From IMG/VR virus record IMGVR_UViG_3300028034_000004, positions 1-56,448 of that record: a stretch of 56,448 bases of DNA. The stretch is one strand, 5' to 3'. Position 1 is the stretch's first letter. Each line of letters starts with the position of its first letter. A model generated the notes under the pieces. That model did not search any database and had not been told where the DNA came from. It worked only from the letters and a program-made list of their open reading frames with translations. This stretch comes from a virus. Shown piece after piece: positions 3,001 through 33,398 of the stretch. A program made the position numbers and the translations under genes.

Positions 3001-6000
3001 TTCCTTTCTCATATCCCCAATTTCCTTCTCATTAAGCAATCCTAATTCTTTATCTTGTTTCAGGGCTTTATTAACAAGGATGGTATGCTTATAGAGTTCA
3101 TTGATATCGGAAACATTTAAGCTGCCATTCGGTAATTCATACACTGGTCTGAACTTTGGCGGAAGTATCGGCATTTTAGTCAGAACATAATCTTCTGGTC
3201 TTTTATCCGTTTTCTTTAATGCTTTAAGATATCTTATTCTTTTGTGCAGCCTATCTTTTTTTGGAGCTGACTTTGTTTTTTTCGCTTCTTCTTTGGCTTC
3301 TTTAATTGCTTCATCAATATCTACTTGAGATAAAGCATCTTTAATTGCTTCACCACCGGTTTTTCCATTTAACTTCTCATCACCTGCTAAGACATTGTTA
3401 AATTTTTTGTTGGTGATGCCCAGAATGGAAACTATAGCGTTTTTAAAGACGGGATTAGGTATTGGTTCCTCTAAATTAATATGTGACCATTTACCCTTAT
3501 CCTCGGTGTCTAAACCACCGGTAATATCCGGATCAAAGAGTCCACCTTTTTCTTCTTTTAAGTCTTTAGCTCTTACAATAGTAGCATCATTAATCTCACC
3601 TGCTGACATTTCCTCAATGTCCTTATCGGTCATTGCCATCAGTTGATAATGTTTTTCGCCTTTTTTGACATTAACCCCGAGACCTTTTAATTCATCAATG
3701 AATTTATCGAATACAAATGGCGTCTCAAGCTTAGGTAAAGGTGCACCCACCTGGAAACTACGCCAGAATTCATCATTGCGTTGACCCTTAAGTGTAGACA
3801 TTTCTTTGAGGTTGTGTTTGGCACCGTGAGCAAGAAGTGTATAATTAGTCAAAATATCCATTGACTGTCCTGATGATTTACCACCTTGTATTGGCTGTTC
3901 GTTTTCATCATATCCTTCACCGACACCTCTGGCTGAGAATTTCTTTTTAGTTTGATGTTTTAGTTTTAAGAAATACTGTTTACCGGTAAAAATCGGATTT
4001 TCTAATTCCCCTTCGGTAGGGTCGATTATCTTTTCCTTTTCACTTAAACCGTGCTTTTTTAAGTCTTTTTTAATTTTATCCAAATAATCTTCACCAGAGA
4101 AATTATTAATTTTATATGGCTTACCAGTTTTATCTGCAATTTTACCTGCTGCAGTTTCAAGTAACTGGCTCGGGTTCATTCTCGAAGGCACCGTATGAGG
4201 GTTCAAGATTATTTCAACCGGTTTACCATCTTCATTGTGTGGTGCCTCGTTATCTGGAATAATCTTAGAGATAGTACCTTTATTCCCATAGCGACCTACT
4301 ATTTTATCTCCTTCTTTTGCTTTTTCTTCAGTTTCTACAATAATTTTAATCAGATTACCATTACGGACAACCTCATTAACTTCACCTTCGTTCTCATTAT
4401 CCCACTCAATCGTAAAAGGAGCCTGATCGGGAGCTAAGTTTTTGTGAATATTCTTTAAAAGGTAATCTGTTTCAGTTAAGTTTTTCTTTCGCAAGGCAAC
4501 GAGTAACTTATCACCTTTTTTGACTAACGCTCCTTTTTTAATTACACCTTCATCGTCCATTTTTTGGGCATTATCTGTTTTAAGTTCTCTAGGAAAAATT
4601 ATATTAAATCTTTCTTTATCCATTGTCGTATTGGTATCTTTTTCAAACTCGAAGGTATATAAATGTTCTGACCTCATCTTTTCGGCTGCACTATCTGAAA
4701 TTACAAGTCCATCTTCAAATGTGTAGCCTTTATATGGCATAAAGGCTACATTCAAATTAGTACCTAATGCCATTGTTCCATCTTTAGTAAAGTTTGAATC
4801 AGCTAAGAGTTCGCCTTTTTGAACTTTATCCCCCACTTCGACTTTAATTTCATGTGTAACCATTGAGGACCCACCAAGTGGAAACTTATCGTAAGTATCT
4901 ATTTCTATTTCATCCCCGTTAGATTTTTTAATGGTTAGTGGATCTGTTGAAGTAATTTCACCAGCAACAGGGGCTTTAATGGCATTGTTATTGCCGAGAG
5001 ACTCCTCAAAGGTGGAACCGTCTTCTGTTACTGCTGACTGTACCAGAGGGGCTTCTCTGTTCTTTAAAGATAATGCCTGTTCCTGCATCTTACCACCCAT
5101 CATTGCTCTGTTACCCTGAGTGTTTTGCAAAAATGGAATAAGGTTAGTTGTGTGGTCAAACATACTCTTATCAGAGAGTAGTATATAATCTACTTTAGAA
5201 GAGTCAACCTCATTAACTTCCTTTTTATCCATTACCTTAACCGTTTTATTTTTAAACTTCTTTTTCTTTTTATCATACTGGTCCGGAAAGGCAACAGTTG
5301 ATTCACTCATTTGTTTTGGTGATATCTTTTCGACTTCTTTGGTTTTGGCATTGATTACCCTGGTCTTTAATTCTCCATCCTCAATGTCAGTAGCGACACC
5401 AAGATGAAGGTTAGCACCAATCTTTTGTGACTCTGGTGTATGTACTGGATCTAAGAACCCAAATTGAGAAGGATTAATATTAATCATATCATCAGATAAT
5501 TGGTTGGGGGAACTTATTCCACCCTCGCCCATGATAGTTACTTTTCTGTAATTACCTAACGCCGCCAATGGGTTGGTTATTTCAGTAGCTGCAGTAATAT
5601 CGGAAGATGTGAAAAAAGATTTAATCGGTTCATTAAACAAATTAGGAGAAACTATCTTTTTAATTTCTTCGTGATTATCTACATTGTATTCTACATTTCT
5701 TTTTATTTTATCTACCGACTTATCAATTCTCTCTGACAGATGATCCTCAACTGACATAAATTTCTTAAACACTAAAGAATCTCTGTCATCTTCTTCCTCT
5801 TTATTCTGCATTACTTTTATAAGTTTTTGAGCAGCATGTAATATTAAATCAGCATTCACTCTTTCAAAACTCTTACCTAAAGTAATTTCTGTGGTCTCTT
5901 TATCCATTTCAGCTTCATTGAAATATGTTTTTATATCTTCTTTTGCTTTATCTAAATTGGTGTGATCTGAATAAACTATCTTTTTGGCGAAGTTCTTGAC

Positions 6001-6606
6001 AGCTTTCTTTGTCCTGTGTTCTTTTTCCCGTCTATTCGTGTCGAGGATCTCTTTCCCAAGGAATTGTTCCATATAACTATCTTTGATACCCATACCTTTT
6101 AAGAAGGCATATAAGGATATATTAGAACTCCTGGCGGAAATGTATAATATTTGATCTTCGGGGTCCATCTTGATTTTGAACCCTGGTTTGTTACCAACAT
6201 TGATTTGAGTCTGTAATTCGCCGTTGTTAGCAAACTTTGTGTATACTCCAGCTTTTAACCGCAGCTGATTTGATGCTTGATATTCATTACCATCAACAAG
6301 ATAAGTGTATCTCTGGGTTAGTGCTGGAAGTCTCATTATCTTAACTGTCTTATCATCAATTTTTTCACCAGTTAGATTATCCCAAAGTGTTAAATGGGCT
6401 CTGACTGGAAGAGTTAGACTTCTATTTTTAAGTTTTATTTCCTTTTGTTTCTTTAGAGAATGCAAAGCTTTGGTAGAACCAAACTTTAATTCCTCTAATT
6501 TAAGGGTATGTTTTTTACCTTTGACCGGAAATATCTTAGCAACAGACTGGTCTAATTTCTCTTCAATTTTATTTGTTATCTTTTGTATCTCTTCTTCTGG
6601 AAACAT
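1..6606 (-). CDS. Fused beta-beta' RNA polymerase with intein (3' end outside window)
   Basis: DNA-directed RNA polymerase, both large bacterial-type subunits in one uninterrupted frame; 2,202 residues are visible (about 1,678 without the intein). Beta signatures: SQFGFLDPVHTPE near residue 384, YTFEDGLVIS near 632, GRYGNKG and NPHTVPSRMN near 770-800, and a beta C-terminus ending near 950. Beta' signatures follow with no stop: GKWSHINLEEP near 1035, MPILPPKFRPV, DLTGRSIIVAGP, ILNRAPSLHKF, NADFDGD at 1366-1372, and after the intein MAVHVP and the bridge-helix/trigger-loop segment GARKGMIDRA near 2175. Start ATG at 6606 follows AAAGGAGG. No alpha subunit gene is seen. It should transcribe phage genes, probably with the sigma-like factors at 11233 and 35180. 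Fused rpoB-rpoC genes are known in a few bacteria (Helicobacter, Wolbachia); best-known phage enzymes of this class are split or single-subunit. The function is clear; whether alpha or omega are needed is not. Confidence 0.93.
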   Translation of the reverse strand, partial: MFPEEEIQKITNKIEEKLDQSVAKIFPVKGKKHTLKLEELKFGSTKALHSLKKQKEIKLKNRSLTLPVRAHLTLWDNLTGEKIDDKTVKIMRLPALTQRYTYLVDGNEYQASNQLRLKAGVYTKFANNGELQTQINVGNKPGFKIKMDPEDQILYISARSSNISLYAFLKGMGIKDSYMEQFLGKEILDTNRREKEHRTKKAVKNFAKKIVYSDHTNLDKAKEDIKTYFNEAEMDKETTEITLGKSFERVNADLILHAAQKLIKVMQNKEEEDDRDSLVFKKFMSVEDHLSERIDKSVDKIKRNVEYNVDNHEEIKKIVSPNLFNEPIKSFFTSSDITAATEITNPLAALGNYRKVTIMGEGGISSPNQLSDDMININPSQFGFLDPVHTPESQKIGANLHLGVATDIEDGELKTRVINAKTKEVEKISPKQMSESTVAFPDQYDKKKKKFKNKTVKVMDKKEVNEVDSSKVDYILLSDKSMFDHTTNLIPFLQNTQGNRAMMGGKMQEQALSLKNREAPLVQSAVTEDGSTFEESLGNNNAIKAPVAGEITSTDPLTIKKSNGDEIEIDTYDKFPLGGSSMVTHEIKVEVGDKVQKGELLADSNFTKDGTMALGTNLNVAFMPYKGYTFEDGLVISDSAAEKMRSEHLYTFEFEKDTNTTMDKERFNIIFPRELKTDNAQKMDDEGVIKKGALVKKGDKLLVALRKKNLTETDYLLKNIHKNLAPDQAPFTIEWDNENEGEVNEVVRNGNLIKIIVETEEKAKEGDKIVGRYGNKGTISKIIPDNEAPHNEDGKPVEIILNPHTVPSRMNPSQLLETAAGKIADKTGKPYKINNFSGEDYLDKIKKDLKKHGLSEKEKIIDPTEGELENPIFTGKQYFLKLKHQTKKKFSARGVGEGYDENEQPIQGGKSSGQSMDILTNYTLLAHGAKHNLKEMSTLKGQRNDEFWRSFQVGAPLPKLETPFVFDKFIDELKGLGVNVKKGEKHYQLMAMTDKDIEEMSAGEINDATIVRAKDLKEEKGGLFDPDITGGLDTEDKGKWSHINLEEPIPNPVFKNAIVSILGITNKKFNNVLAGDEKLNGKTGGEAIKDALSQVDIDEAIKEAKEEAKKTKSAPKKDRLHKRIRYLKALKKTDKRPEDYVLTKMPILPPKFRPVYELPNGSLNVSDINELYKHTILVNKALKQDKELGLLNEKEIGDMRKELFKSMEAVQGLSDPITNDAVRRGKKGILREIGGTSGTQPKNAFFQNRVMRKRQDLTGRSIIVAGPDLDIDTIGLPEEMAWNIFKPQVIRKLTQEAAIPGAEARDEHWEKRSETAKKMLKEVAEETPVILNRAPSLHKFSTMAFKPKLIEGKSIQLPSLVTGGFNADFDGDCALDVCSIGLDEGFMEWNKEKMKKKSKSPLTEYPLSDMMYVSNYKGEDKMVGHIGELIVDGEFVSGNIHLKKFPRIEESKEVKDNTEIYDVPDGVTVLAMDEEGNKKWMPVSKFHIHKNLKMRKIRTNRLNDYLVSDDHSLTVINDELKIKKSVGEINDMMPVVTEIEEPEDPIDVITPINDSYVNAGYNSRLKKEIPLNKETGYIFGAFIGDGNATLSKGKLINKIQLSNSSEPLINKWKEIISSWLNEEINFNTYEKPHTWEGHDCMSIVTEFSEGNIAKMFYDLFGHGAENKHLPSWFMNTSKEFRLGLLSGLLDTDGSITEVKAKAKKKKQVQFSYHTKSLELSKQVQLLCKSLGLKSNVTIYEQNDMEYQNVSMSSVTMENVKDDLLIVTENRKEALSKLKTDAVASSRYDLVPLPEKLGQKIRSAVGSKERKIYAPISNTMKKGYTSRLVAKRAIKKLGDEFFGEGLMKKWKEIVEDETVTWARITKIEEYTKETTAYDITVPDVWTFTLASGLVVYDTMAVHVPVSKEAKEEALEKMLPSKNLFRPGHNNFMYTPGHEQILGLYYLTKNPDKKELKGEYSSKSEALKAYREAKKNKEKWSKEDPIKVNGDIITIGKIIVNQVLPKKYRKYDKAIDKGYLKKMFSELGEDEEFDNSKLADIANELKNLGNEHVYKRGFTVGISDLDIDKKKKDKIYDAAKKKVEKARKKPKEQAQKEIAKIMNEAEKKVYKQITDDNPDNAFVVMQRSGARGNEHNVRQILGGPGILADNKNEIVPVPVTKSYGEGIDTADYWTTMYGARKGMIDRAKSTAEPGAFNKELINNT
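919..2490 (-). other. LAGLIDADG intein inside the polymerase catalytic loop
   Basis: An in-frame 524-residue insertion (residues 1373-1896) lies between NADFDGD and MAVHVP. It starts with Cys1 (CALDVCSIG). The first downstream extein residue is Thr, where beta' normally has Gln, which fits the Cys/Ser/Thr rule for splicing. Splicing block B is LNDYLVSDDHSL (intein residue about 137). A homing-endonuclease domain has both dodecapeptide motifs, GYIFGAFIGDGN (about 205) and LLSGLLDTDGS (about 315), each with its catalytic Asp. The C-terminal blocks read AYDITVPDVWTFTLASGLVV then Tyr-Asp|Thr: the usual His-Asn end is replaced by Tyr-Asp, and the usual block F His by Trp. Either this is a non-canonical splicer or splicing is slow. 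About 100 extra residues separate Cys1 from the usual beta-strand after block A (TEIYDVPDGV). Confidence 0.9.
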
Positions 6607-18134: not shown

Positions 18135-18617
18135 TTAACTAATTATTTCTAGTTTATCGCACTTTGCAATGTCTCTTGGTTTAATATCGCCCAAATACAT
18201 ATCCGGAACTAAATCAATATCAATCTCGTTATAAACAATATCAATAAGTTCAGAACAAATTATATAATTGGGATTATTAAACATATTTTTACCTTTAAAT
18301 AAACCAGAAAATAAATAGCCAAATATTTGAGGTAAATCATATTTATTTCCTATACTTTCTAACATTGGTTTGAAAATTTTTTCTTTTTGGATAGAGTTTA
18401 ATCCACCTTTAATTCTCAGGACATCATATTTATCTGGTATCTCATTTAAGTGAATTATATGAACTCCACTCCAAAGATGTGATTCAATCAACAGATTAGA
18501 ATCTTCATGAATAACCATTGCCACATGAGTATAAGGAGATTCAGTAAACCAAGATATCCCTTTATCAATTATATGTTCACCCTTTTCTAATATAATATCG
18601 CCGGTTTCAAGTTTCAT
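18135..18617 (-). CDS. Permuted papain-like (YiiX/YebB-type) hydrolase
   Basis: 160 residues. The opening LETGDIILEKG, then SPYTHVAMVIHED with His31, and the later NYIICSELIDIVYNE with the Cys fit permuted NlpC/P60-like enzymes of the YiiX/YebB group, where His comes first and Cys later. Such enzymes cut amide or thioester bonds in peptidoglycan or lipids. It overlaps the endolysin gene by 11 bases, so a cell-wall role in lysis is likely. No signal peptide. Alternative: an effector acting on host lipids. Confidence 0.7.
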   Translation of the reverse strand: MKLETGDIILEKGEHIIDKGISWFTESPYTHVAMVIHEDSNLLIESHLWSGVHIIHLNEIPDKYDVLRIKGGLNSIQKEKIFKPMLESIGNKYDLPQIFGYLFSGLFKGKNMFNNPNYIICSELIDIVYNEIDIDLVPDMYLGDIKPRDIAKCDKLEIIS

Positions 18618-19344
18618 TTATCCACCCCATTAATCTATCAACGATTACTGCCATCTCACCTCTGGTTACTGGATCTCCTGGCCTAAAGTTTTTGGTCTCG
18701 CTAAAGATACCAGCTTTCATGGTTCTTTCAATTTCTTCTTTGGCCCAGTGGTTTTCGTAATCTGTAGTTCTACCATCATATGCTCTCAAGCCTTTGAGGA
18801 TTGCTTTAATTAATTTTCTTTGGTATTGCCTATCATTTAGTAGTCTTTCTTCCTCAACGTTGGTAATGAACCCAAATTCGATTAATATGGCAGGCATATC
18901 AGTGTCATTTAATACATAAAGGTTATCTCTTGATTTAATACCTCTGTCTGGAGTGTCTGTCACTGCAATTAATTCTTTTTGAACTGCTGCAGCTAGTTTT
19001 TTACCTTCTTTTGAATCCGGGTGGTATAATGTTTCAATACCTTTAGCTGATTCAGCAACAGCTGCATTGCAGTGAAAAGAAATAAATACATCAACTTTTT
19101 CTTTATTAGCTATGTTGCATCTTTTTCCTAAAGTTATGTACTTATCTTCTGTTCTTGTTGGAAATACTTCATATTCTTTTTTTGCTTCTTCAATAAAAAG
19201 TTTTCCTAGTTCTAAGTTAATATCGCTTTCCTCTGAATAAATATCATCTTCATAAATCTCGTCATCTAAGGCTTTATCTTTGGGGTCTACTGCCCCTGGA
19301 TCGCTTCCGCCGTGTCCAGAATCTTGTGCTATTTTATTTATCAT
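18607..19344 (-). CDS. Endolysin: N-acetylmuramoyl-L-alanine amidase with SLH domain
   Basis: 245 residues. Residues about 5-190 are an Amidase_3 zinc amidase: DSGHGGSDPGA with the first His, the NLELGKLF segment with the metal Glu, FISFHCNAA with the second His, and AILIEFGFITN with the catalytic Glu. Residues about 198-245 form one S-layer-homology module (HWAKEEIERTMKAGIF, then FRPGDPVTRGEMAVIVDRLM). It cleaves the bond between muramic acid and L-Ala in host peptidoglycan; the SLH module should anchor it to the secondary cell-wall polymer, so the host likely has an S-layer. No signal peptide, so export needs a holin; its start overlaps the holin stop (ATGA). Confidence 0.92.
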   Translation of the reverse strand: MINKIAQDSGHGGSDPGAVDPKDKALDDEIYEDDIYSEESDINLELGKLFIEEAKKEYEVFPTRTEDKYITLGKRCNIANKEKVDVFISFHCNAAVAESAKGIETLYHPDSKEGKKLAAAVQKELIAVTDTPDRGIKSRDNLYVLNDTDMPAILIEFGFITNVEEERLLNDRQYQRKLIKAILKGLRAYDGRTTDYENHWAKEEIERTMKAGIFSETKNFRPGDPVTRGEMAVIVDRLMGWINET

Positions 19345-20804: not shown

Positions 20805-20951
20805 TTAAAATTTCTTTTCGAATTCGAATCCAAATGAAGTACCTTCTTTTTCTTTTATAACTCCCAAAGTAAAGTCACCTTTTTTAAGTTTCATTGCTGG
20901 TCCATCTTTGGAGAGGCCGGCTGAAACATCGCCGACCTCGACCAGCTTCAT
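20805..20951 (-). CDS. 48-residue small protein
   Basis: Starts MKLVEVGDVSAGLSKDGPAM and ends in FGFEFEKKF. The ATG overlaps the stop of the previous holin-like gene by one base (TAATG), so it is probably translated by coupling. Basic and beta-like; no family recognised. Its stop lies within the ribosome site of the next coiled-coil gene. Confidence 0.6.
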   Translation of the reverse strand: MKLVEVGDVSAGLSKDGPAMKLKKGDFTLGVIKEKEGTSFGFEFEKKF

Positions 20952-21394
20952 TATTTTGGGTCTGATATCCTGGCAATTTCTTTTCTAATATCGGATTTTT
21001 CATATAATTTAGCTTCAAGATAATCAGCAACCCATTTATCAAAGTTGTCTGTCTGTGATTTTATCATATTAATACTTTCATTTGAAAGAGTATTAATAAA
21101 CACTTGTTTAGCTTTAGTGAGGGCATCACGCTTTTCATTATCAGTTAACTTTCCATCTTTACTTGCCTCTCTTATTTTCTTAACAAATGTCTGCTCAACT
21201 GAATTAATTGATTTATCGGCTATTACTTCGGCTTCGTCTAATGCTGTGAATAAAGCCTGTCTAACGGACTCATCTTTTATTTCTTTAGATTTAACCTTCA
21301 AATAATTAATTCCAAAACCTATCAAGATAGTAATCAAAACACCTATAATACTTATTCCACCTTCGATTAAAGCACTTTCTAATTGTACTGGCAT
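20951..21394 (-). CDS. LLH-type holin candidate
   Basis: 147 residues. One N-terminal membrane segment (GGISIIGVLITILIGFGINY) followed by a long charged helical domain. The layout and phrases such as RQALFTALDEAEVIADKSIN and KDGKLTDNEKRDALTKAKQ resemble the phage holin LLH family. The start ATG follows AAAGGAGGAG. If correct, the cassette has two holin candidates, with this one possibly the pore former and the protein at 19341 its partner, or the reverse. Confidence 0.7.
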   Translation of the reverse strand: MPVQLESALIEGGISIIGVLITILIGFGINYLKVKSKEIKDESVRQALFTALDEAEVIADKSINSVEQTFVKKIREASKDGKLTDNEKRDALTKAKQVFINTLSNESINMIKSQTDNFDKWVADYLEAKLYEKSDIRKEIARISDPK

Positions 21395-21423: not shown

Positions 21424-23052
21424 TCACTTTTTAATCATTTCATAAAATCTGAGAGCAGCTTTACCATCAATTTTTCCAATAGAACATTGTTGGATAGTTG
21501 GAACTATAGATTCGTTGGTTATCTTTTTGTTATAAACAGGGTCGAATTGACAATGTCCTAATTTACAACCTTTGCATATTGGCTCTAATTCTCCATTGAA
21601 AAAACCTTCATCAATATCTTCATATTTATTTTTTAATGAAGGATCCAGATAACTAATTTCATTTTCAATAAATTTTTCGTTGAAAAAGTTATTATTCTGA
21701 TATAAAATATCATCAATAACATTTATATGAAAGACCCCTTCTTTTTGCATAAGGTCTATTATCTTATTTAACTGTTTATCGTACTCATTTAAATTTTTAT
21801 CAGACCAACCAGCTGTATCTTTAAATCTAAATTGAAAATGATAAATATTTTTCTTGAGCCCTTCTAAAACAATATTATATAATTTTGAAACATTATTAAT
21901 TGAAATTTCTATCATCATCTTTATTTTAGCATTTGTCTCAAGTTCAAAATCAGGAATTGAATCAACTAGTATCACAGCATTTTCTTTAATATCAATCTTT
22001 TTAGGATTAACTAATAAAGGTAGAGTTTCCCCTTTTTTTATATATTTCATAACTTTAGTCTCCTTTTTTATTTCTTTTAATCTTTCCCAGTGTTTAAAGG
22101 CTTTTTCAATCATCATTTTAATTAATTTACAATAATTTGCTTGAATTTTCTTTTTAGGTCCATCAATATTTTCATAAAGGAATGAATCATTACCCCAACA
22201 GTTGCAACAATATGCCTCATACTTACATTTATTACATTTATTCCAATTAACATGTTCGTGACTCCTTTCCCCTTTAGCATACTTATATCTGGTACAGTTA
22301 AATTTTTTTCCAGTGGTGCCAACGTAACTTGCATCTTCAAGATCACAAACTATATCATTAATGTATCCTGGCTCATCAAGTCTATATCTTTCTAATTTTA
22401 TTTTTTCTATTTCATCAAGGTGGTCAATTATAAAATTATTAATTTTGTCTAACTCTTTGCTCAAGTTCTCTCTATATTTCTTTGTAAACCCTAAATCATC
22501 TAAATTTAAATAAATTGAAAAATTTCTAAAACCTAAACTATAAAGAAATTTAATATTATCATATGTTTTATTAAGATATTCTTTATCAATAACTGCAGAA
22601 ACTCCCAATTTAATTTTGGTATTATTTTTTATCCATTCATAATTTTTAATAACGTTTTCAAAATTGCCGCCTTTTTTCTTTTGTTCGAATATATCTTTTG
22701 GACCATCTAAAGAGATATCTATAGAAATTATATCTTCATATTTTTTATAGGTTTTTTTCATTCTGTCATCCAATAAAGAAAGATTAGTAGTCATATTAAT
22801 ACTTATGTTTCTTCTATTTTTGATAGCGTTACATTTATTCAATATATATTCAACTAATTCAAAATTTAATATAGGCTCTCCCCCAAAAAGTGTAAAAGAA
22901 ATAAGTTCATCTTTTTTAGTTTTTTTTAGAGACTCCTTAAATAAATCGTCAAAAACTTCTTTCGACATCATTCCTTTTTTATTGATGTGTTCACAATAGT
23001 CACAATTGTAATTGCATTCTTCGGTCAAAAATAAAGTATAAAGTTGGTTCAT
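21424..23052 (-). CDS. Radical-SAM SPASM enzyme C (peptide maturase type)
   Basis: 542 residues. The radical-SAM 4Fe-4S motif C-x3-C-x2-C is at Cys13, Cys17 and Cys20 (EECNYNCDYCEH). GGEP follows (LFGGEPILNF), then ISIDISLDGPKDIFE, as in SPASM-type enzymes. A Cys-rich SPASM-like region holds KKFNCTRYKYA, NKCNKCKYEAYCCNCWG and NYCKLIKMM (residues about 245-310). The C-terminal 220 residues form an extra domain that ends with another cluster (ICKGCKLGHCQFDP, then QQCSIGK). It would bind several iron-sulphur clusters and act on peptide substrates, most likely the CXXX-repeat tails at 24966 and 25326. The start overlaps the previous stop (TAATG). The DNA seems more AT-rich than the capsid genes. 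Confidence 0.85.
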   Translation of the reverse strand: MNQLYTLFLTEECNYNCDYCEHINKKGMMSKEVFDDLFKESLKKTKKDELISFTLFGGEPILNFELVEYILNKCNAIKNRRNISINMTTNLSLLDDRMKKTYKKYEDIISIDISLDGPKDIFEQKKKGGNFENVIKNYEWIKNNTKIKLGVSAVIDKEYLNKTYDNIKFLYSLGFRNFSIYLNLDDLGFTKKYRENLSKELDKINNFIIDHLDEIEKIKLERYRLDEPGYINDIVCDLEDASYVGTTGKKFNCTRYKYAKGERSHEHVNWNKCNKCKYEAYCCNCWGNDSFLYENIDGPKKKIQANYCKLIKMMIEKAFKHWERLKEIKKETKVMKYIKKGETLPLLVNPKKIDIKENAVILVDSIPDFELETNAKIKMMIEISINNVSKLYNIVLEGLKKNIYHFQFRFKDTAGWSDKNLNEYDKQLNKIIDLMQKEGVFHINVIDDILYQNNNFFNEKFIENEISYLDPSLKNKYEDIDEGFFNGELEPICKGCKLGHCQFDPVYNKKITNESIVPTIQQCSIGKIDGKAALRFYEMIKK

Positions 23053-23948
23053 TATATCTCCCTCACTAAGTCAAAATATTTTTGAATAAAATTAGGACGA
23101 TTTATTTTTTCTTTAAAAATACTCCCATTGGCTTCTCTATTTTCTAATAAACATGTAAAACTAACACCTGCTATATTGAAAGGTCTTCTTTTGTTTTCAT
23201 CAATTCCATCATAAATATTGCCAAGTCTATTCTCCGGATAGTCATAATTTACACAAGGATAGATATCTCCCCTTTCATTAATCATTAAATGATTTTTGCA
23301 TTCGCAAAAACCTTTGGTTTCTATATTGAGGATTTGTTTTAAATTTTTATATTGCATACATTTTTTTCTGAAATAATTTTCAAATTTATCCCAATCAAGT
23401 TCTTCATCCCAATCAATTCCATTTGCAATTAATATATCATACCCCGGATAAATATTTTCTTTAATAAAATCTATAATTCTATCTAAACTAAAAATAGTAG
23501 AAGGAGTAACTACAGTATTCACTCTTGTAATGAAGTGCCTAAAAAACCAAAGGTTATTCATTACTTTATCAAAGGAATTGTTTCTGTTAGCATCTTGTAT
23601 ATCTTTTGGTCCATCAAAACTTAAAATGATGCTTATTCTGTCTTTGTTTTTTAAAAATATTTCCTGTATTTTTTGATTTAATACTGTTCCGTTGGTTATT
23701 ATTTTTAATTTAATTTCAGGAAAATTTTCCGCAAATATATTTATTATTTTCGGATTTAACAAAGGTTCCCCTCCGGTAAACAGTATCCTGTCGAAGTTTT
23801 CATCTGAACTCTTTATAAATTTTGATATATTCTGCGCCATATCAGATGACATCTTTATTTTCTCAGCTGGTAGGTCACAATAAGAACAATTTAAATTACA
23901 ATTTTTGGTTGGTTTAATAAATAATGTGTATCCATCCAATTCCCTCAC
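23052..23948 (-). CDS. Radical-SAM enzyme B (short SPASM/twitch type)
   Basis: 298 residues. C-x3-C-x2-C at Cys17, Cys21 and Cys24 (KNCNLNCSYCDL). GGEP motif in LFTGGEPLLNP, then ISIILSFDGPKDIQDANR. The C-terminal part has only a reduced Cys set (GFCECKNHLMINERGDIYPC), so probably one auxiliary cluster rather than two. It also shows the NRLGNIYDGI phrase typical of SPASM proteins. It sits between the helical protein and enzyme C and is translationally coupled to C. Probable role: a second maturase in the same pathway. Start GTG 23948; a TTG three codons on is possible. Confidence 0.83.
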   Translation of the reverse strand: MRELDGYTLFIKPTKNCNLNCSYCDLPAEKIKMSSDMAQNISKFIKSSDENFDRILFTGGEPLLNPKIINIFAENFPEIKLKIITNGTVLNQKIQEIFLKNKDRISIILSFDGPKDIQDANRNNSFDKVMNNLWFFRHFITRVNTVVTPSTIFSLDRIIDFIKENIYPGYDILIANGIDWDEELDWDKFENYFRKKCMQYKNLKQILNIETKGFCECKNHLMINERGDIYPCVNYDYPENRLGNIYDGIDENKRRPFNIAGVSFTCLLENREANGSIFKEKINRPNFIQKYFDLVREI

Positions 23949-23951
23949 CCT

Positions 23952-24950
23952 TTAGTATTTGTAATCTTCTATTTTATCAATTTCATTTAATATTTCTTCA
24001 AGGTTAAAATCACCTTTACCATAAGAAGAAATATAGTCAATCATAACAAATAAAAATGCTTTCTTCGATCTTGAATCATCATCTTCATAATGTTCTTCCC
24101 AATATTTTTTAGATATTTCTCTGAAATTGGAATCAATTCTTGAAGGATAATTAACATTCAAATAATCAAAATAAGATTCTAATACATATCCTTTAAATTT
24201 CGTGTTATTGTATAATTTCATAAAATAATCTTCTAAATCTATATAACCGCTATTTACAGCCATTTTAGCAGCAGAATACATAGTAATTCTTCCGTAATTA
24301 TCTATTGATCCTTCTTTTTCTAATTTTTCAGTGGCATCAATTATTTCCTCCATGAGAAGGTCTATTTTTTCGGTATCTTCGTCCGCGAGTGCTTTCTGCA
24401 ATCTTATTTCAGTAACCTGCAGTAATATATCATAATGATCATAATTAAATCTTGTTGTTATTTTATCAAAATTTAAATTATCAACAATATATTCTTTATC
24501 CTCTTTTAGTTTTTCTAATTCATCAAAATATTTTTGATTATCTTCTAAATTAGAAGATAAAATAAAGTTTCCAAGATAGGTCATGGCATGCATTTTATCT
24601 TTTATATCATTTGCATTTTTTGCCTTTTTAAAAAGATTATCAATAGCTTCTTTTTTGGATATTTTAGAAACCATTACATTTAAAATATCAAGGGTTATGT
24701 TTATTGAATCATATTTTAAAATTTTAGAATAATCATTATTAATTCTTTCTACCAAAGAATTAATAAATTTAAAAGATGATTCTTCTAATAAGAAAATTCG
24801 AAGAGCGCTTGATAATAATCTAACTGCGTTTTCTTCATCCATTTTACTATCCAATATTTTGTCGACTTTTTTGAAAAAACCGTTTAAATTTTCTTCTTGA
24901 ATATTTTTGACTAAGTAATTAACATTTTCATTAATTTTATCAATTTCCAT
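23952..24950 (-). CDS. Helical accessory protein of the radical-SAM cluster
   Basis: 332 residues, almost entirely predicted helical and acidic, with repeat-like helix pairs (e.g. NAVRLLSSALRIFLLEE, KIDLLMEEIIDATEKLEKEG). TPR-like or HEAT-like packing is possible, but no clear consensus is present. It contains no Cys, no membrane segment and no catalytic motif. It lies between the short CXXX protein and radical-SAM enzyme B and ends three bases before B begins. By position it could present the precursor to the enzymes or link it to tail assembly. The start ATG follows AAGGGGGA. Confidence 0.65.
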   Translation of the reverse strand: MEIDKINENVNYLVKNIQEENLNGFFKKVDKILDSKMDEENAVRLLSSALRIFLLEESSFKFINSLVERINNDYSKILKYDSINITLDILNVMVSKISKKEAIDNLFKKAKNANDIKDKMHAMTYLGNFILSSNLEDNQKYFDELEKLKEDKEYIVDNLNFDKITTRFNYDHYDILLQVTEIRLQKALADEDTEKIDLLMEEIIDATEKLEKEGSIDNYGRITMYSAAKMAVNSGYIDLEDYFMKLYNNTKFKGYVLESYFDYLNVNYPSRIDSNFREISKKYWEEHYEDDDSRSKKAFLFVMIDYISSYGKGDFNLEEILNEIDKIEDYKY

Positions 24951-24957
24951 TTTTATT

Positions 24958-25000
24958 CCCCCTTAAAACCATCTACCATCACACCCATCACAACCACCAG
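24958..25000. repeat. 43-base direct repeat, copy 1
   Basis: Identical to 25318-25360. It covers the ribosome site of the downstream gene, the stop codon and the shared C-terminal codons for GGCDGCDGRWF. Confidence 0.9.
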
Positions 25001-25310
25001 CACAAGTTCCTCTACAAGACCCAGAACATGATCCTGTACAGCTAATACATGTTGAAGAACACGTTCCACCACACCCTTCACATAATCCAGCACAAGTTCC
25101 ATTACACCCACTATCAGTTCCCACATCTGGTTTACTAACAAAGAAATTGGTTCTATTCCTTAAGTCATAAAAATGGCTAGATTTTATTATTACTTTATTA
25201 TCTTTTAAATTAACATCATCTAACCAGGAATAAGGCTCTATCAAATCTAAACTATTTCGATAATCATTTATTATACTTCCTAAAATTAAATCTTCCTTTT
25301 GTACTCCCAA
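24963..25310 (-). CDS. Short CXXX-repeat protein (putative radical-SAM substrate)
   Basis: 115 residues from TTG 25310, which follows AAGGGGGTG. Residues 1-67 are an ordinary acidic/aromatic leader-like domain (NDYRNSLDLIEPYSWLDDVN). Residues 68-115 hold 12 Cys in 48 residues, mostly spaced every fourth residue with Gly, Ser and Thr between (CNGTCAGLCEGCGGTC at the start), and end in GGCDGCDGRWF. The same end is found on the propeller protein upstream. Families of Cys-X-X-X repeat radical-SAM targets with dedicated maturases are known in bacteria; this fits them in pattern. No Cys lies in the leader. Alternatives: a metal-binding or disulphide-rich tip that the enzymes do not touch. Confidence 0.75.
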   Translation of the reverse strand: MGVQKEDLILGSIINDYRNSLDLIEPYSWLDDVNLKDNKVIIKSSHFYDLRNRTNFFVSKPDVGTDSGCNGTCAGLCEGCGGTCSSTCISCTGSCSGSCRGTCAGGCDGCDGRWF

Positions 25311-25317
25311 TTGAACA

Positions 25318-25360
25318 CCCCCTTAAAACCATCTACCATCACACCCATCACAACCACCAG
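25318..25360. repeat. 43-base direct repeat, copy 2
   Basis: Perfect copy of 24958-25000, 360 bases away. Recombination between the two would delete the short CXXX gene cleanly or amplify it. Confidence 0.9.
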
Positions 25361-26873
25361 AGCAACTACCATAACATGTTCCGGTACAACCGCCTTTACA
25401 TGTCCCAGCACAATTTCCGACACAATTACCACCACAAGTGCCACTACATCCTTGACATAAACTAGCACATCCCGAGTTACATCCATCACTTGGCACATTT
25501 CTTCGTATCATCTCATCATCGATATAACTTATTATTTCATTAGTGTGTAATGCTTTTATAAGAGTTTCTTTAGCAATCAAATCATCTGTAAATTCTATCG
25601 TTTTAACTACATTATCTATTTTTGAGATATTTATTGTTCCTGCATGATCTGAAACTATTGGTTGATCAGCTGTTATAATAAATTCTAAAGTATTATTCCC
25701 GAAAATTAATTCACTATATTGGATTGTTTCGTTAATTAAAATTGGAGCGTCGCTTAAAAAAGTTACATTTTTATAACTGGTTCCATTTAAAAATATTTCA
25801 TATGCTATTTTTATTGGTTCTGCATTGATTTCTCTTAAGTACCCGCTAACATCAACATTCATAGGGTTTACAGATTCAACATTTGTAGGACTTACAGTTA
25901 TATCAGTTAATTCAATTCGAGGAACATAAGTATAAGTATCTTCTCCAATATATTCCGGAACATTTGATACCTGACCATAGTCATCTCTTCCCCAAGCAAA
26001 ATTTATTAAAGTTCCATTTTTTAGACTACCATCTGTGGTCATTGCTAAAGCATGGTTATATCCGGCATCAACTTCTGAAAAAATAAGTTCTGGATGATCT
26101 GGATAATCTGGATAATCTAATATTTGATTATAATTATCTCTTCCCCAAGCTTCTAATTTTCCGTCTGATTTCAATCCAACTGTAAAATTCTGACCCGAAT
26201 CTAAATCTGTAAAATTATTTAAATAAGGTGTATTAGTAACCTGACCATAAGTATCATCTCCAAAGGAAATTATAACCCCATCTTCTCGGAGTGCAGCGCC
26301 GTGTGATTCTCCGGCTGATATTTTACTATAATTATTTCCAGTGGGTGTATCAATCCCAACCCCTTTTAAGGTGCCATCATACATTAAAAGGAGAACAAAA
26401 TTGTGGCCAGCTTCCACATCTATTATACCACCGTGAACGGGTAGATCATTTAAGATTGGATTATCCCCAATACCTTTTATGTGACCGCTTTCGTCAAGAC
26501 CCACTCCAAAATCACTGCTTGCTGTTATTTTGACAAAATTATTATCAGGTGGAATATTAGATATTAAACCCCAACTAGTTATAGAACCACCAGATAAAGC
26601 TAATGAAAATTCATCCCCGGCAGCAATTTGTTCAAATGTTCCACTCGGGGTATTCGTTATCAATCCATTAGCATCGTTACCAACAGTTTCTAAATGACCA
26701 TCAAAATATCTAACAGTTGTATGATTGTTACCTGCAGCTAGATGATTTTCGAAATCAGTAGAATTAAGTGACAATTGAGGAGGTATTTCTAAAGTTGAAT
26801 CAAAATCAACATTTCCATCAATATAATTTATAACATTAATGTCGATTGAAGAATTAAGATCATTGGTTGGCAT
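25323..26873 (-). CDS. RCC1-type propeller tail fibre with CXXX-repeat tip
   Basis: 516 residues. Residues about 45-330 are RCC1-like propeller repeats, with recurring AAGDEFSLAL, SAGESHGAALREDG and DAGYNHALAMTTDG plus 'W-G-x-D-x-x-x-Q' blades (AWGRDNYNQILDYPD). Residues about 335-460 look like an immunoglobulin-like beta domain. Residues 464-516 are a Gly/Ser/Thr tail with 13 Cys, mostly every fourth residue (CNSGCASLCQGCSGTC at the start), ending GGCDGCDGRWF. The N-terminus (TNDLNSSIDINVINYIDGN) resembles that of the tail protein at 45594. Gene position next to a tail fibre suggests a receptor-binding protein whose C-terminal tip is a radical-SAM substrate. Start ATG overlaps the enzyme A stop region; GGAGG upstream. 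Confidence 0.78.
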   Translation of the reverse strand: MPTNDLNSSIDINVINYIDGNVDFDSTLEIPPQLSLNSTDFENHLAAGNNHTTVRYFDGHLETVGNDANGLITNTPSGTFEQIAAGDEFSLALSGGSITSWGLISNIPPDNNFVKITASSDFGVGLDESGHIKGIGDNPILNDLPVHGGIIDVEAGHNFVLLLMYDGTLKGVGIDTPTGNNYSKISAGESHGAALREDGVIISFGDDTYGQVTNTPYLNNFTDLDSGQNFTVGLKSDGKLEAWGRDNYNQILDYPDYPDHPELIFSEVDAGYNHALAMTTDGSLKNGTLINFAWGRDDYGQVSNVPEYIGEDTYTYVPRIELTDITVSPTNVESVNPMNVDVSGYLREINAEPIKIAYEIFLNGTSYKNVTFLSDAPILINETIQYSELIFGNNTLEFIITADQPIVSDHAGTINISKIDNVVKTIEFTDDLIAKETLIKALHTNEIISYIDDEMIRRNVPSDGCNSGCASLCQGCSGTCGGNCVGNCAGTCKGGCTGTCYGSCSGGCDGCDGRWF

Positions 26874-27993
26874 TTTCTACCTCCTCAATTTTTTCAAAGA
26901 AATATTTGTTTGCTTTATACTGTGCTTCAACCATATCACAAAACATTCCTTCTCTTCTAAAAATAGAACCGCTGACATCATAATTGTAGGCGGTACACCA
27001 GGAGCACATTTTTTTATATTCACATTCATTACATTTCTTTTTGTATTCTCCTTGAATTGTTTGAAGATTAACATATTCAAATGGTTTTAATTTATTTTGA
27101 TCTATCCCATTATAAATGTCTCCTATTGCTAAATTATCCCTTTGCGATAATGTTTGAAACCTATGACAGGGATATAATTCTCCATTAATTCCTATTGAAA
27201 TCATGCTTGTTCCCGAGCCACACCAATTTCTATATTTTAAATCTTCGCCGTCACTATTATAAAGATGAGTAAAATAACCGACATAAATATCTTCGTAAAG
27301 CCCCGTATCTATTAAATAATCAGCTAATTTAATTAATTGATTTTTAAAAATTTCTGGATCATCCTCAGTCCAAACATTTTCAAAAACATTGTTTATTTCT
27401 ATTCTATCAAGACCTAAATCTATCAAATGTTTAACACTTTCAAAAAGATAAGGAAGGGTATCATGATTTACCGTAGCTTTTATATTATTCCAAGGGAAGG
27501 TTTTTCTCCACCAATCAAAATCTTCCATTATTTTATCATAAGACCCATTTCCTTCTACTGTTTTACGATTTAAATCATGAGCTATTTTAGAACCATCTAA
27601 ACTTATTCCTACGCTTAATTTATTTCTATTTCGTTTTAAAATTTCTTTTATTTTGTCGGTAAATAAAGTTCCATTTGTTGTTATCGAATAAATTCTATTA
27701 TTTTTCCAAGGATGGTCCAAATCAATTAGCTTCTCATCTATGTATTTTATTATATCATACATTAAGTCAAACTCAACTAAAGGTTCTCCTCCAATAAATT
27801 CGAAAATTCCCTTATCATGTTTAACCGGTTTGTTTAATATATAATCAACTGCATCTTTGGCAACATCCAAATCCATCGTAATGTGTTTTTTGTTTTCCTC
27901 ATAACAATAAGTACATCTTAAATTACATTTTTCGGTAATCATAAATGAAACTGTTTGTGCAATTGGATTATCTTTTGGTTTTTTATATCTCAT
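26860..27993 (-). CDS. Radical-SAM SPASM enzyme A (peptide maturase type)
   Basis: 377 residues. C-x3-C-x2-C at Cys23, Cys27 and Cys30 (EKCNLRCTYCYEE), GGEP in FIGGEPLVEF, and SVGISLDGSKIAHDLNRK. A complete SPASM domain follows: NWCGSGTSMISIGINGELYP with Cys-His after it (CHRF), then KKCNECEYKKMCSWCTAYN and FCDMVEA. This is the textbook seven-Cys arrangement binding two auxiliary clusters, as in sactipeptide, ranthipeptide and quinohaemoprotein maturases. The gene lies directly upstream of the propeller-CXXX gene and overlaps it by 14 bases, so that protein is its most likely substrate. The start ATG follows AAGGGGAG. Confidence 0.88.
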   Translation of the reverse strand: MRYKKPKDNPIAQTVSFMITEKCNLRCTYCYEENKKHITMDLDVAKDAVDYILNKPVKHDKGIFEFIGGEPLVEFDLMYDIIKYIDEKLIDLDHPWKNNRIYSITTNGTLFTDKIKEILKRNRNKLSVGISLDGSKIAHDLNRKTVEGNGSYDKIMEDFDWWRKTFPWNNIKATVNHDTLPYLFESVKHLIDLGLDRIEINNVFENVWTEDDPEIFKNQLIKLADYLIDTGLYEDIYVGYFTHLYNSDGEDLKYRNWCGSGTSMISIGINGELYPCHRFQTLSQRDNLAIGDIYNGIDQNKLKPFEYVNLQTIQGEYKKKCNECEYKKMCSWCTAYNYDVSGSIFRREGMFCDMVEAQYKANKYFFEKIEEVENANQ

Positions 27994-28004
27994 TTTATCT
28001 CCCC

Positions 28005-28454
28005 TTAAAAGTTATCCAGTTTCTCCAACAAAAGGCCAATTTCTTCGTTTATCTTTTCTTTTATGAAATCGGGAGCTTGATAATTTAATAAAGTTTCTAA
28101 TTTATTTTTCATTAACATATGTTTTACCATTTTTCTTTCTTCATTTTTAATCAAGTCATCAATAATGTTTAGTGACTTATTTATATCTTTATTAAAATGA
28201 TAATTAAATAAAAATATTTGATAATAAAAATCACTTACCTCTTCTGAAAGGATAAATAAATATTTATTGGAGTTTTCTTTAGATTCTATTTTTCTAAAAA
28301 GAACATCAAGTGGACCCATTAAACCTTCAATCCATTCAAATTTATCATAAACTGCTTCTATTTTTTCTGACCATTTTCTAAAATCGTTTAAATCATCTTT
28401 TTCAATGGCGAGTATAAGCCTTGCTTTCAATATTGTTTTATCTTTAGATAACAT
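28005..28454 (-). CDS. Small helical accessory protein
   Basis: 149 residues from ATG 28454, preceded by AGGAGGG; the frame stays open into the upstream fibre gene but that part is not needed. All-helical and charged (LILAIEKDDLNDFRKWSEKI), no Cys in the accepted frame, no membrane segment. It heads the radical-SAM cluster and resembles, in character only, the larger helical protein at 23952. Each CXXX-repeat protein thus has a helical partner and at least one radical-SAM enzyme nearby. A chaperone or precursor-binding role is inferred. Confidence 0.6.
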   Translation of the reverse strand: MLSKDKTILKARLILAIEKDDLNDFRKWSEKIEAVYDKFEWIEGLMGPLDVLFRKIESKENSNKYLFILSEEVSDFYYQIFLFNYHFNKDINKSLNIIDDLIKNEERKMVKHMLMKNKLETLLNYQAPDFIKEKINEEIGLLLEKLDNF

Positions 28455-28464
28455 TTGTTCCCTC

Positions 28465-29532
28465 CTAACAATTTTGTACAAACATCCATATTCTTTTTTC
28501 TTCACCTTCAGCAAGTGGTTCTAAAGCTTTACCTATTATAGTTCCTGGGACATTATCTTTTGATTTTCTTGCAAACCCTTTTTTAGAAGAAGTTTCTAAT
28601 TGGTCCATTGTTTCGATTGGTCCTATAGCTTTTACTTTTACTCTTCCGCATAAACCTTGTGGTGCATATTTTTTTAAATTTTCTTTTTCAGATACATTCT
28701 CCCCTCCAATATAAATTCCATAAGTATCAGAATAAACACCCATTACTCTTTTATCACCTGCTTCTGTGCAGGCTTTAACGCCGTCATTATCCCAAATTAA
28801 AACATCACCTGGTTCTACATCTTCGTTCTTTGGCATAAACTCAGCTAGGTCATTATAAACTGCTCTAGATATTTTAGCGTCATTATCTAAGATTTGATAT
28901 TTAACACCACCGGTATCATATTTAAATAACTGTGCTTGAGGACCTAAAGTAGTGTCTCCTTCAACAGCATTTATTTCAAATACTGGGTCATCATTATTAT
29001 TATATATACTTAAAGCAAACTCATCATTATCTGCATCACCGGTTTTGATTAGCATACCACCAGCATCGGTACCTGTTGTTTGTAATAAAAATCCATAATT
29101 ACCTCCTGCCCCGCTGTTACCGGTAGTAAAAGAATATTGTTTACCTGGTGTTATCACTTCAAGGTTATCTTCTAAACCAACTTTACTTTTGAGATTAGTA
29201 TCTCCATACACGGTTAAATCACCATCGGCTTGAATATAACTATTGCTTCTTATATGACCTACAGCTGTTATATAATCAGAAAATTCCCCAAAACCACCGA
29301 ATGTTGAATCGCCACTAATATCTAAATTACCCGTCGCAGCTACATTGGCATTAATTTGTAAGTCATTTTCTATAACGGGATCAGCTAACCATTCTTCCCA
29401 AATTTCTGTATTATGTAGTGTATTTTCCCACAATCTTTGAAGTGGTCGGTTAGCAACACCGGCAACTACATTTTCGGTTAAATCTATTAATTCTATTTCA
29501 TCTATTGTTCTATGAAATGGTGTACTAGGCAT
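28465..29532 (-). CDS. Tail fibre with C-terminal chaperone-like domain
   Basis: 355 residues. The N-terminal part (about 1-60) has a Trp-rich attachment-like region (NTEIWEEWLADPVIENDLQI). Residues about 60-200 are beta-rich fibre repeats (ATGNLDISGDSTFGGFGEF). The C-terminal 140 residues (YNDLAEFMPKNEDVEPGDVL, MGVYSDTYGIYIGGE, GRVKVKAIGPI, PGTIIGKALEPL) match the conserved module at the end of many Firmicutes phage fibres, related to intramolecular chaperone or Peptidase_G2-type domains. It probably forms trimeric fibres for host binding. The start ATG follows AAAGGAGG. Confidence 0.8.
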   Translation of the reverse strand: MPSTPFHRTIDEIELIDLTENVVAGVANRPLQRLWENTLHNTEIWEEWLADPVIENDLQINANVAATGNLDISGDSTFGGFGEFSDYITAVGHIRSNSYIQADGDLTVYGDTNLKSKVGLEDNLEVITPGKQYSFTTGNSGAGGNYGFLLQTTGTDAGGMLIKTGDADNDEFALSIYNNNDDPVFEINAVEGDTTLGPQAQLFKYDTGGVKYQILDNDAKISRAVYNDLAEFMPKNEDVEPGDVLIWDNDGVKACTEAGDKRVMGVYSDTYGIYIGGENVSEKENLKKYAPQGLCGRVKVKAIGPIETMDQLETSSKKGFARKSKDNVPGTIIGKALEPLAEGEEKRIWMFVQNC

Positions 29533-31628: not shown

Positions 31629-33398
31629 TTATACACCTTCTTCTTTGGCTACCGAAACTTTAGGCACCATTGTTTGATAAGGTAATATTTTATATTCATC
31701 TTCGATCGGAATATATTCATCGGTGCTCCCTATACCGTTTGGCGATTGGCAACTAAATGAAATATTATAAGCCGATGAATCCATCATATTCCCATTGGAG
31801 AAGACCATTATTCTCCCCTCTTGATAATCTATTTGATAATCGATGTTCCTTTTAAATACTGTTATACCATCAGTTACAGTCTCGGTGTTATAGAGGATTT
31901 TAAAATATGGTAAATCTACATATGTATCATAATTACTATTAAATGAAATTGGATTATCCAAAGTTATATAAGGTGTATCCAACTCCAAAGTCATTGGCAA
32001 CTTTACTTTTTCTACATTTTCTGCATAAAGTGTACTTATGAGATCTGAAACCTCAAATATTCGCCGCATCGGTTCACCATAATTTGAATATTCACTACTC
32101 GCTCTTGTTTCATTATAATGATAATATTTGATAAAATAATTTATTTTTTCCTGTAATTCCAATTCTTCAATTTCTCCTCTATAATATATTATACCATAAA
32201 GGGGGAGCAATTCAAAGTGGCGAATTAGGGGATCTCCAACGGGCATTCGGTTCTTAGGATCATTAATAAACTTTTGCATTTGAGGTATCGCTGGACTTGC
32301 TAAAGCTCTAATTCTTATATCCGAGACCACATTTTCATAAGTAGTCCCCGTAAAATCTAAAATTGATTTTTGTCTTACGGAATTTTCAGTAAAGAGTGAT
32401 TGAATGAAATCAACTCCATTTATTGTACCAGTCACTTCACCATCGGAAGTTAATGCAGAAACTTCTAAAGCTCTAACAATAACCATATCTATAGGTTCAC
32501 CTTGGCTGTTTTTGGCGGTATATGTATGACCGTTTTCAAACATTTCCGTACCTAGATCGCCGATGCTAAAGCCAAAGTTAACAGTTGGATCTTCTGTTTT
32601 AGTTATGTCAAATTCATATTCTGCTAAGTCATTATTTTCAACCCAAATATCATGCATGTTACCTACTCGGTATTCTTTATTGTTGATTACTTCAATTTCT
32701 CTGCGCATTAATTCATCACCAGTTCTAATTGGAAAAATATTAATTATTGTGCTGGCAAATTTATTTTTTAAAACCGACTTAATGGCCGGTTCATTAGAAA
32801 GATTTCTGACTGATATGCTATCCTGCACTCTCTCATATGTTTTCTCGGGAGGTTCCACACCAGCTCCATTATTAAATCCATAAGGATTACTTATTTGCAC
32901 GGCTCTACTTTCTATAATAGGATTTAAACAGGTAGTTATAGCTTTCGGGTCTATATTATACTCATCAGATTTTTCTTCCGCTATAACCTCTAATTCGTGA
33001 TAATAATACATACCTTCAGAATAATTAGCCATTTCAGTTGAAGTTATTTGGGTGTCTTTGATTGCACTAAATCTTAAATCGTTATCGGTGGCAAAACCTG
33101 TGCCTTCTTTAACTGTTAAATCCGTCGGTGAATCAAAATAAACCCTAACCGCTCCTTGGGCATATTCTCCCGAAGAAACATCTACAAAAAAATTGCCAGC
33201 AAACATTTCTTGGTCGTCTTTTTCTAATTCATTGAAGTTTAAAAAGGATAACTTTTTTGGGAGATTGTCAATTTCTATTTTTATTGGCTCGTTAAGCTGC
33301 AAATATTTTTTGGTGAAAAGATCGTCAACTGTGTTGTTTAAGGTGACATCAACTCCTATGTCGTTTAAATCCCTTCTTACTTTTTCTTTAAAATCCAT
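31629..33398 (-). CDS. Baseplate wedge protein (J/gp6-like)
   Basis: 589 residues. The segment from about 85 to 200 follows the Baseplate_J pattern: a region of beta strands with NFFVDVSSGEYAQGAVRVYF, then GTGFATDNDLRFSAI, an NP-x-GF-NNGAGVE segment (ISNPYGFNNGAGVEPPEKTY), and the RVQDSISVRNLSNEPAI helix. Such proteins form the wedge ring of contractile tails (P2 gpJ, T4 gp6). The start ATG follows AGGAGG. Confidence 0.75.
   Translation of the reverse strand: MDFKEKVRRDLNDIGVDVTLNNTVDDLFTKKYLQLNEPIKIEIDNLPKKLSFLNFNELEKDDQEMFAGNFFVDVSSGEYAQGAVRVYFDSPTDLTVKEGTGFATDNDLRFSAIKDTQITSTEMANYSEGMYYYHELEVIAEEKSDEYNIDPKAITTCLNPIIESRAVQISNPYGFNNGAGVEPPEKTYERVQDSISVRNLSNEPAIKSVLKNKFASTIINIFPIRTGDELMRREIEVINNKEYRVGNMHDIWVENNDLAEYEFDITKTEDPTVNFGFSIGDLGTEMFENGHTYTAKNSQGEPIDMVIVRALEVSALTSDGEVTGTINGVDFIQSLFTENSVRQKSILDFTGTTYENVVSDIRIRALASPAIPQMQKFINDPKNRMPVGDPLIRHFELLPLYGIIYYRGEIEELELQEKINYFIKYYHYNETRASSEYSNYGEPMRRIFEVSDLISTLYAENVEKVKLPMTLELDTPYITLDNPISFNSNYDTYVDLPYFKILYNTETVTDGITVFKRNIDYQIDYQEGRIMVFSNGNMMDSSAYNISFSCQSPNGIGSTDEYIPIEDEYKILPYQTMVPKVSVAKEEGV

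Follow-up and report, generated by a model that had tools for sequence, protein, structure and literature searches.

What are three radical S-adenosylmethionine (SAM) enzymes doing between the tail-fibre and lysis genes of a phage, and which proteins do they act on? The question is raised by positions 21,424 to 28,454 of IMG/VR virus contig IMGVR_UViG_3300028034_000004, whose 56,448 nucleotides (referred to here as the window) belong to a contractile-tailed phage with its late genes on the minus strand (sheath gene at 44022-45593, baseplate wedge gene at 31629-33398). An earlier, sequence-only reading had interpreted the enzymes, together with neighbouring proteins that end in Cys-X-X-X (CXXX) repeats, as a system of the RiPP (ribosomally synthesized and post-translationally modified peptide) type used to modify virion receptor-binding proteins. 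The interpretation as a RiPP-type system is supported by the analysis described here: the first enzyme, rSAM1, groups with peptide maturases, open reading frames (ORFs) with CXXX repeats co-occur with it, and the position of the genes between tail and lysis functions is constant. The best explanation of the locus, and probably the correct one, is that it is a phage-borne CXXX-repeat modification system which has been redeployed on tail-associated proteins, not on exported peptides.

Organization of the module

Seven co-directional, closely packed genes lie between a tail-fibre-like gene and a holin gene, all on the minus strand. They are listed below with their flanking genes in the order of transcription; the proteins with CXXX tails are called targets in the sense of putative enzyme substrates.

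28465..29532, minus strand: tail-fibre-like protein, directly upstream of the module (weak PHROG 36281 match)
28005..28454, minus strand: 149-aa all-helical protein, probable rSAM1 partner (by position; no family match)
26860..27993, minus strand: rSAM1, CXXX-repeat radical SAM/SPASM peptide maturase (TIGR04115, E=2e-101)
25323..26873, minus strand: target 1, RCC1-type propeller, linker domain and C-terminal CXXX tail (RCC1_2 Pfam, E=3e-27; phrog_6085 match in the tail)
24963..25310, minus strand: target 2, 115-aa small Cys protein with a CXXX tail (like the CXXX proteins of L015, L007, L010 and L009)
23952..24950, minus strand: 332-aa all-helical protein, possible adaptor (no family match)
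23052..23948, minus strand: rSAM2, PapB-like radical SAM protein whose auxiliary Cys set is partial (PapB model, phrog_1802)
21424..23052, minus strand: rSAM3, with a radical SAM core, a SPASM-like Cys set and a C-terminal TIGR04119-like part (HxsB and PapB models, TIGR04119)
20951..21394, minus strand: holin, the downstream border of the module (phrog_36209, E=1e-15)
18607..19344, minus strand: endolysin, downstream of the holin in the direction of transcription

The architecture described in the sequence-only reading is borne out: the cluster is placed between tail-fibre and lysis genes, it includes two helical proteins and two proteins with terminal CXXX repeats, and its tight packing is evident in a 14-nt overlap at 26860-26873 and a TAATG at 23052. 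The three radical-SAM proteins have one CxxxCxxC motif (CNLRCTYC, CNLNCSYC and CNYNCDYC) and one GGEP each, and the count of two enzymes with extensive SPASM-like Cys sets (rSAM1 and rSAM3) is correct, since the set of rSAM2 is only partial. The whole cluster is also present in another contig, L004 (compared loci carry L numbers throughout), with 99.5-100% nucleotide identity and every frame intact; rSAM3 of L004 differs by one alignment gap and is one codon longer.

The radical-SAM enzymes

A CXXX-repeat system consisting of a TIGR04114 target, a TIGR04115 radical-SAM enzyme, a TIGR04116 partner and a TIGR04119 maturase is known from Bacteroidota and Clostridia, and family searches place parts of this system in the window, with scores mostly below the curated cut-offs. 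The enzyme rSAM1 matches the full length of TIGR04115 (positions 1-359 of 359), which is described in NCBIfam as “radical SAM peptide maturase, CXXX-repeat target family”, with 340.1 bits against a cut-off of 350, and this is its best family by far. All 33 phage rSAM1 homologues sampled match the same model (best E=7e-197), and both the core motifs of rSAM1 (C23, C27, C30 and GGEP at 68) and the seven Cys of its SPASM set (258, 276, 321, 324, 330, 333 and 352) are invariant among them. The nearest solved structure is that of CteB, the SCIFF thioether maturase (PDB 5wgg, E=3e-29), with which rSAM1 shares a SPASM domain. The resemblance has its limits, in that the score of rSAM1 for the SCIFF maturase family (TIGR03974) is 159 against a cut-off of 425, and SCIFF is a short cellular peptide with six Cys, whereas the window carries 12-13 Cys on proteins of a tail locus.

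The expectation that the enzymes would group with peptide maturases holds for rSAM1 (TIGR04115, PapB and SCIFF maturase), while rSAM2 and rSAM3 can be placed only loosely among the peptide-modifying radical-SAM enzymes. The best models for rSAM2 are PapB (E=4e-27, 95 bits) and phrog_1802 (E=2e-26). For rSAM3 the HxsB and PapB models give about 1e-23 each, and residues 473-541, where the second C-terminal Cys set of the protein falls, align to positions 117-185 of TIGR04119 (4e-11, 43 bits against a cut-off of 150) and have 29% identity across 52 aa to the stand-alone TIGR04119 protein of L008.

PapB, the maturase of the ranthipeptide freyrasin (NF047865), is matched by all sampled phage rSAM1 proteins as well as by rSAM2 of the window, and Cys-based repeats are common to both systems, but the scores (250 bits for rSAM1 and 95 for rSAM2) stand below the cut-off of 340. 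PapB is described as linking Cys to Asp or Glu (PMC9413430), whereas the repeat units of the phage CXXX proteins are dominated by Ser, Thr and Gly, with Asp at about 5% or less at each position. Because the units are so poor in Asp, a Cys-Asp bond of the PapB kind is improbable as the general bond type in these proteins.

Co-occurrence of enzymes and CXXX proteins

Viral contigs were searched with an rSAM1 alignment, and the best 80 of at least 311 relatives were analysed. A CXXX-repeat ORF is present in 75 of these 80 contigs, preceded by tail-fibre genes and followed by lysis genes, so that the cluster does recur in other phages, as the check proposed in the sequence-only reading called for. 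The 61 non-redundant loci (0.95 Mb) contain 75 CXXX ORFs, 69 of them within 3 kb of the enzyme, and none is found antisense. In bacterial genomes, which were searched alike as an internal control, CXXX ORFs go with TIGR04115-like enzymes: the genomic radical-SAM loci of lower similarity (L121-L167) contain a CXXX ORF in only 2 of 47 cases, and one of these two, L159, belongs to the TIGR04115-type clade. A reverse search with an alignment of CXXX proteins produced 48 loci, 44 of which contain a relative of the enzyme. Among the other four, L170 and L195 stop a short way past the CXXX gene, and L196 and L082 are one contig, on which the enzyme lies just beyond the flank that was taken.

The module is also present in lytic jumbo phages. 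SPN3US, phiEaH2, CR5, Phobos and pSal-SNUABM-04 have two or three CXXX ORFs followed by a helper gene and then a pair of radical-SAM genes, and the module directly follows a virion-protein gene. In SPN3US (L005) three CXXX ORFs lie at 5097-6126, the radical-SAM pair is SPN3US_0163 and SPN3US_0164, and gp168-170, encoded next to the module, are described as tail fibre or baseplate proteins (PMC5105663, PMC10052503). In six pairs of jumbo-phage ORFs, 20-21 Cys are retained and none is replaced, 6-12 of them in each pair through synonymous codon changes. Over the same alignments 27-41 of about 130 codons encode a different amino acid, which indicates strong purifying selection on the target Cys of the jumbo phages. 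The possibility that the CXXX ORFs are chance reading frames can be rejected, because the Cys are retained through synonymous codon changes.

Several features of individual loci were recorded in passing. The GenBank records of the jumbo phages leave several of the CXXX ORFs unannotated, give them wrong starts or cover them with antisense annotations (L005:5097-5904 in SPN3US, L216:4163-4969 in Phobos and L219:4086-5120 in pSal-SNUABM-04; the antisense annotations are Phobos_167, Phobos_168 and pSALSNUABM04_166). The large gut phage contigs L073 and L082 have six consecutive CXXX-repeat genes encoding up to 968 aa, and in Phass-1 (assigned in its record to a code-15 clade) a short Cys-rich ORF (L218:8450-8686) stands beside a related radical-SAM gene.

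The putative cysteine-repeat targets

The tail of target 1 has 13 Cys in 52 residues, a number for which the probability is about 2e-17 given the Cys frequency of the window; they are spaced 4, 4, 3, 4, 4, 4, 4, 4, 4, 4, 4 and 3 apart. In target 2 an N-terminal part of 68 aa precedes a tail of 47 aa that contains 12 Cys, and the sister phage contig alone holds a close relative of this protein among the viral contigs. All Cys gaps in both tails are 3 or 4, and both tails terminate in GGCDGCDGRWF. At their 3' ends (24962-25003 and 25322-25363) the target genes agree at 40 of the last 42 nt, and this near-identity suggests gene conversion or an exchange of Cys tails between tail genes.

Both tails start with CxxxCx(G/S)LC. 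Of 80 phage CXXX proteins, 39 begin their Cys run with an opening motif of this form, in which G or S is followed by L, M or F, while Leu amounts to only about 3% at the corresponding unit position across all repeat units. The motif CxxxCx(G/S)(L/M/F)C is proposed as the site at which the enzyme would enter the repeat.

Cys-rich repeats can bind metal or form disulphides without the help of enzymes, and the tails might accordingly be virion parts that work in this way while the radical-SAM proteins modify something else. This explanation is unlikely, since enzyme and repeat are almost never found apart, TIGR04115 is defined by its CXXX-repeat targets, and the spacing of the Cys is locked (3150 of 3266 gaps of up to 8 residues equal 3 or 4).

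Tail and lysis context

The neighbours of the module are of two kinds. The 93 proteins encoded upstream most often match PHROGs of tail fibre, tail collar fibre, collagen-like minor tail and tail proteins, and the 87 encoded downstream most often match those of endolysin, amidase and holin. Homologues of the tail-fibre-like protein of the window (28465-29532) are encoded immediately upstream of the same module in L013, L014, L019 and L065 (E 6e-19 to 6e-24). In the tail region of L009, three radical-SAM genes and a CXXX gene follow the genes for a large tail-type protein and a fibre-like protein. The CXXX repeats are also joined to other domains in some phages: besides the RCC1 propeller of the window, there is a fusion of the repeats to a GDSL hydrolase in L010 (E=6e-26), and the CXXX protein of L078 has a weak F5/8C match. 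The gene positions and the fused domains are consistent with a location of the CXXX proteins in the virion. In L015 a Hint (self-processing) module follows the CXXX repeat (L015:4405-5520); it might release or attach the modified tail. No annotated tail protein matched the N-terminal parts of the CXXX proteins of L028 and L015.

Since holin and endolysin genes come directly after the module in many phages, its location might also be explained if the CXXX proteins acted in lysis or in late-gene timing, for instance as holin partners or spanin-like proteins. A role of this kind is very improbable, given that the targets have no evident membrane segment or export signal, that their propeller, hydrolase and F5/8C-like fusions point to tail proteins, and that the jumbo-phage module comes after virion-protein genes.

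Comparison with bacterial CXXX-repeat systems

The twin-arginine (Tat) export motif separates the targets of the Bacteroidota clade and of phages completely: it is found in 24 of 24 CXXX targets of the Bacteroidota clade and in none of 80 phage targets. The remark in the sequence-only reading that no exporter is present, as would fit a product kept on the virion, is therefore sustained by comparison. The rSAM1 tree has the same division. A clade of 60 rows is nearly all viral (SH-aLRT, the Shimodaira-Hasegawa-like approximate likelihood ratio test, 99), and a separate clade of 22 rows is almost wholly Bacteroidota (SH-aLRT 100). Five bacterial rows (L107, L108, L110, L117 and L120) fall within the viral clade, and the two that were examined, L107 and L110, lie in regions resembling prophage tail genes. 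The rSAM1 of the window is placed together with those of L009, L010, L015 and the jumbo phages, at a support of 90 and with an open fork. From the Tat contrast together with the separate viral and Bacteroidota clades, it seems that one enzyme family serves two ends: exported peptides in cells and tail-locus proteins in phages.

These comparisons bear on the explanation that the module is a cargo RiPP operon whose Cys proteins are precursors of bacteriocins or signals that aid the infected or lysogenic host and have nothing to do with the virion. The same enzyme family does act with the exported Tat-type CXXX peptides of Bacteroidota, and one mobile element (L018:7407-9620) has a 737-aa TIGR04115-TIGR04119 fusion with ABC (ATP-binding cassette) transporter genes nearby, although no ORF with a CXXX run was found there. 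A cargo function is nevertheless improbable for the phage module in view of the complete lack of export signals in its targets, its constant position by tail and lysis genes, its presence in lytic jumbo phages and the fusion of targets to RCC1 or GDSL hydrolase domains. The phage module resembles the bacterial system in the full-length TIGR04115 match of rSAM1, the CXXX targets, the TIGR04119-like region of rSAM3 and, in many phages, a TIGR04116-like partner, and differs from it in the absence of the Tat signal, the fused domains of some targets, the location between tail and lysis genes, and window scores that fall just or well under the cut-offs.

Candidate partner proteins

In about 30 phage loci a protein of about 100 aa is encoded immediately beside rSAM1. 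Six of 34 such small partners scanned match TIGR04116 (best 2e-30); the predicted fold consists of two long helices and a beta hairpin (predicted local distance difference test score, pLDDT, 95), for which a search of the PDB gave no convincing match (best E 1.3). In the window, L010 and L015, the partner slot is held by other proteins, mainly helical as judged from sequence. The 149-aa protein of the window occupies the slot that the small partner has upstream of rSAM1 in other phages, and is by its position a probable partner of rSAM1. The 332-aa protein, present solely in the window phage and L004, has no family match and no other phage match, and is predicted to be all-helical with low confidence (pLDDT 60).

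Discussion

The mechanism that would follow from the redeployment of a CXXX-repeat modification system on tail-associated proteins begins late in infection, when the RCC1 target and the small target would be made. The enzyme rSAM1, together with its helical partner or partners, would recognize the Cys tail, probably at the opening CxxxCx(G/S)(L/M/F)C, and install radical-made bonds along the repeat while still in the infected cell. These bonds may be thioethers between the Cys sulphur and a nearby residue, as in the analogous PapB and CteB systems, and rSAM2 and rSAM3 might contribute additional or different modifications. Once cross-linked and rigid, the Cys tails would be incorporated into the tail or baseplate and there hold in place or stiffen a module for receptor binding or for enzymatic activity; a cross-linked tail should be both stable and rigid, which would suit a tail tip or anchor. 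The CXXX proteins may accordingly take part in receptor binding or adsorption.

Several observations weigh against this interpretation. The score of rSAM1 is slightly under the TIGR04115 cut-off (340 against 350), and we know of no experiment that has established the chemistry of TIGR04115 enzymes. The targets of the window fit the TIGR04114 repeat model weakly: target 2 reaches 14.2 bits (E=0.046, cut-off 20), and the RCC1 target gives no match. A relation of the helical proteins to the known partner family is not proven, since neither the 149-aa nor the 332-aa protein matches the TIGR04116 model and comparison of the 149-aa protein with TIGR04116-like partners did not show homology. The CXXX protein is stand-alone in most phages, and its sequence therefore does not imply receptor binding. 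Finally, the main text of the SPN3US virion papers mentions only the neighbour gp168 and not gp163-gp167.

The enzyme family itself is already in NCBIfam, and its phage members appear in PHROGs as “radical SAM” and “unknown function” (phrog_1802, phrog_6085). The Campylobacter phages CP220 and CPt10 carry 11-12 radical-SAM genes (PMC2853527). No published description of the module, or of a link of these PHROGs with one another or with phage tails, was found in the full-text literature searched, a body that excludes most subscription journals and bioRxiv.

The recurrence of the module in many unrelated bacterial viruses suggests an overlooked and widespread chemical finishing of virus tails. 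The chances are about even that Cys-repeat tails cross-linked by radical-SAM enzymes form a general class of phage tail adhesin or spike elements, spanning phages of Clostridia-like and enterobacterial hosts, and that they are a first example of virions matured through radical chemistry. Since SPN3US is a model jumbo phage with established genetics and virion proteomics and carries the module, the idea can be tested now. Tail fibres and spikes determine which bacteria a phage infects; if radical-SAM cross-linking does complete them, an entire level of tail chemistry has gone unnoticed, and tail proteins produced in the absence of the enzymes would be unfinished.

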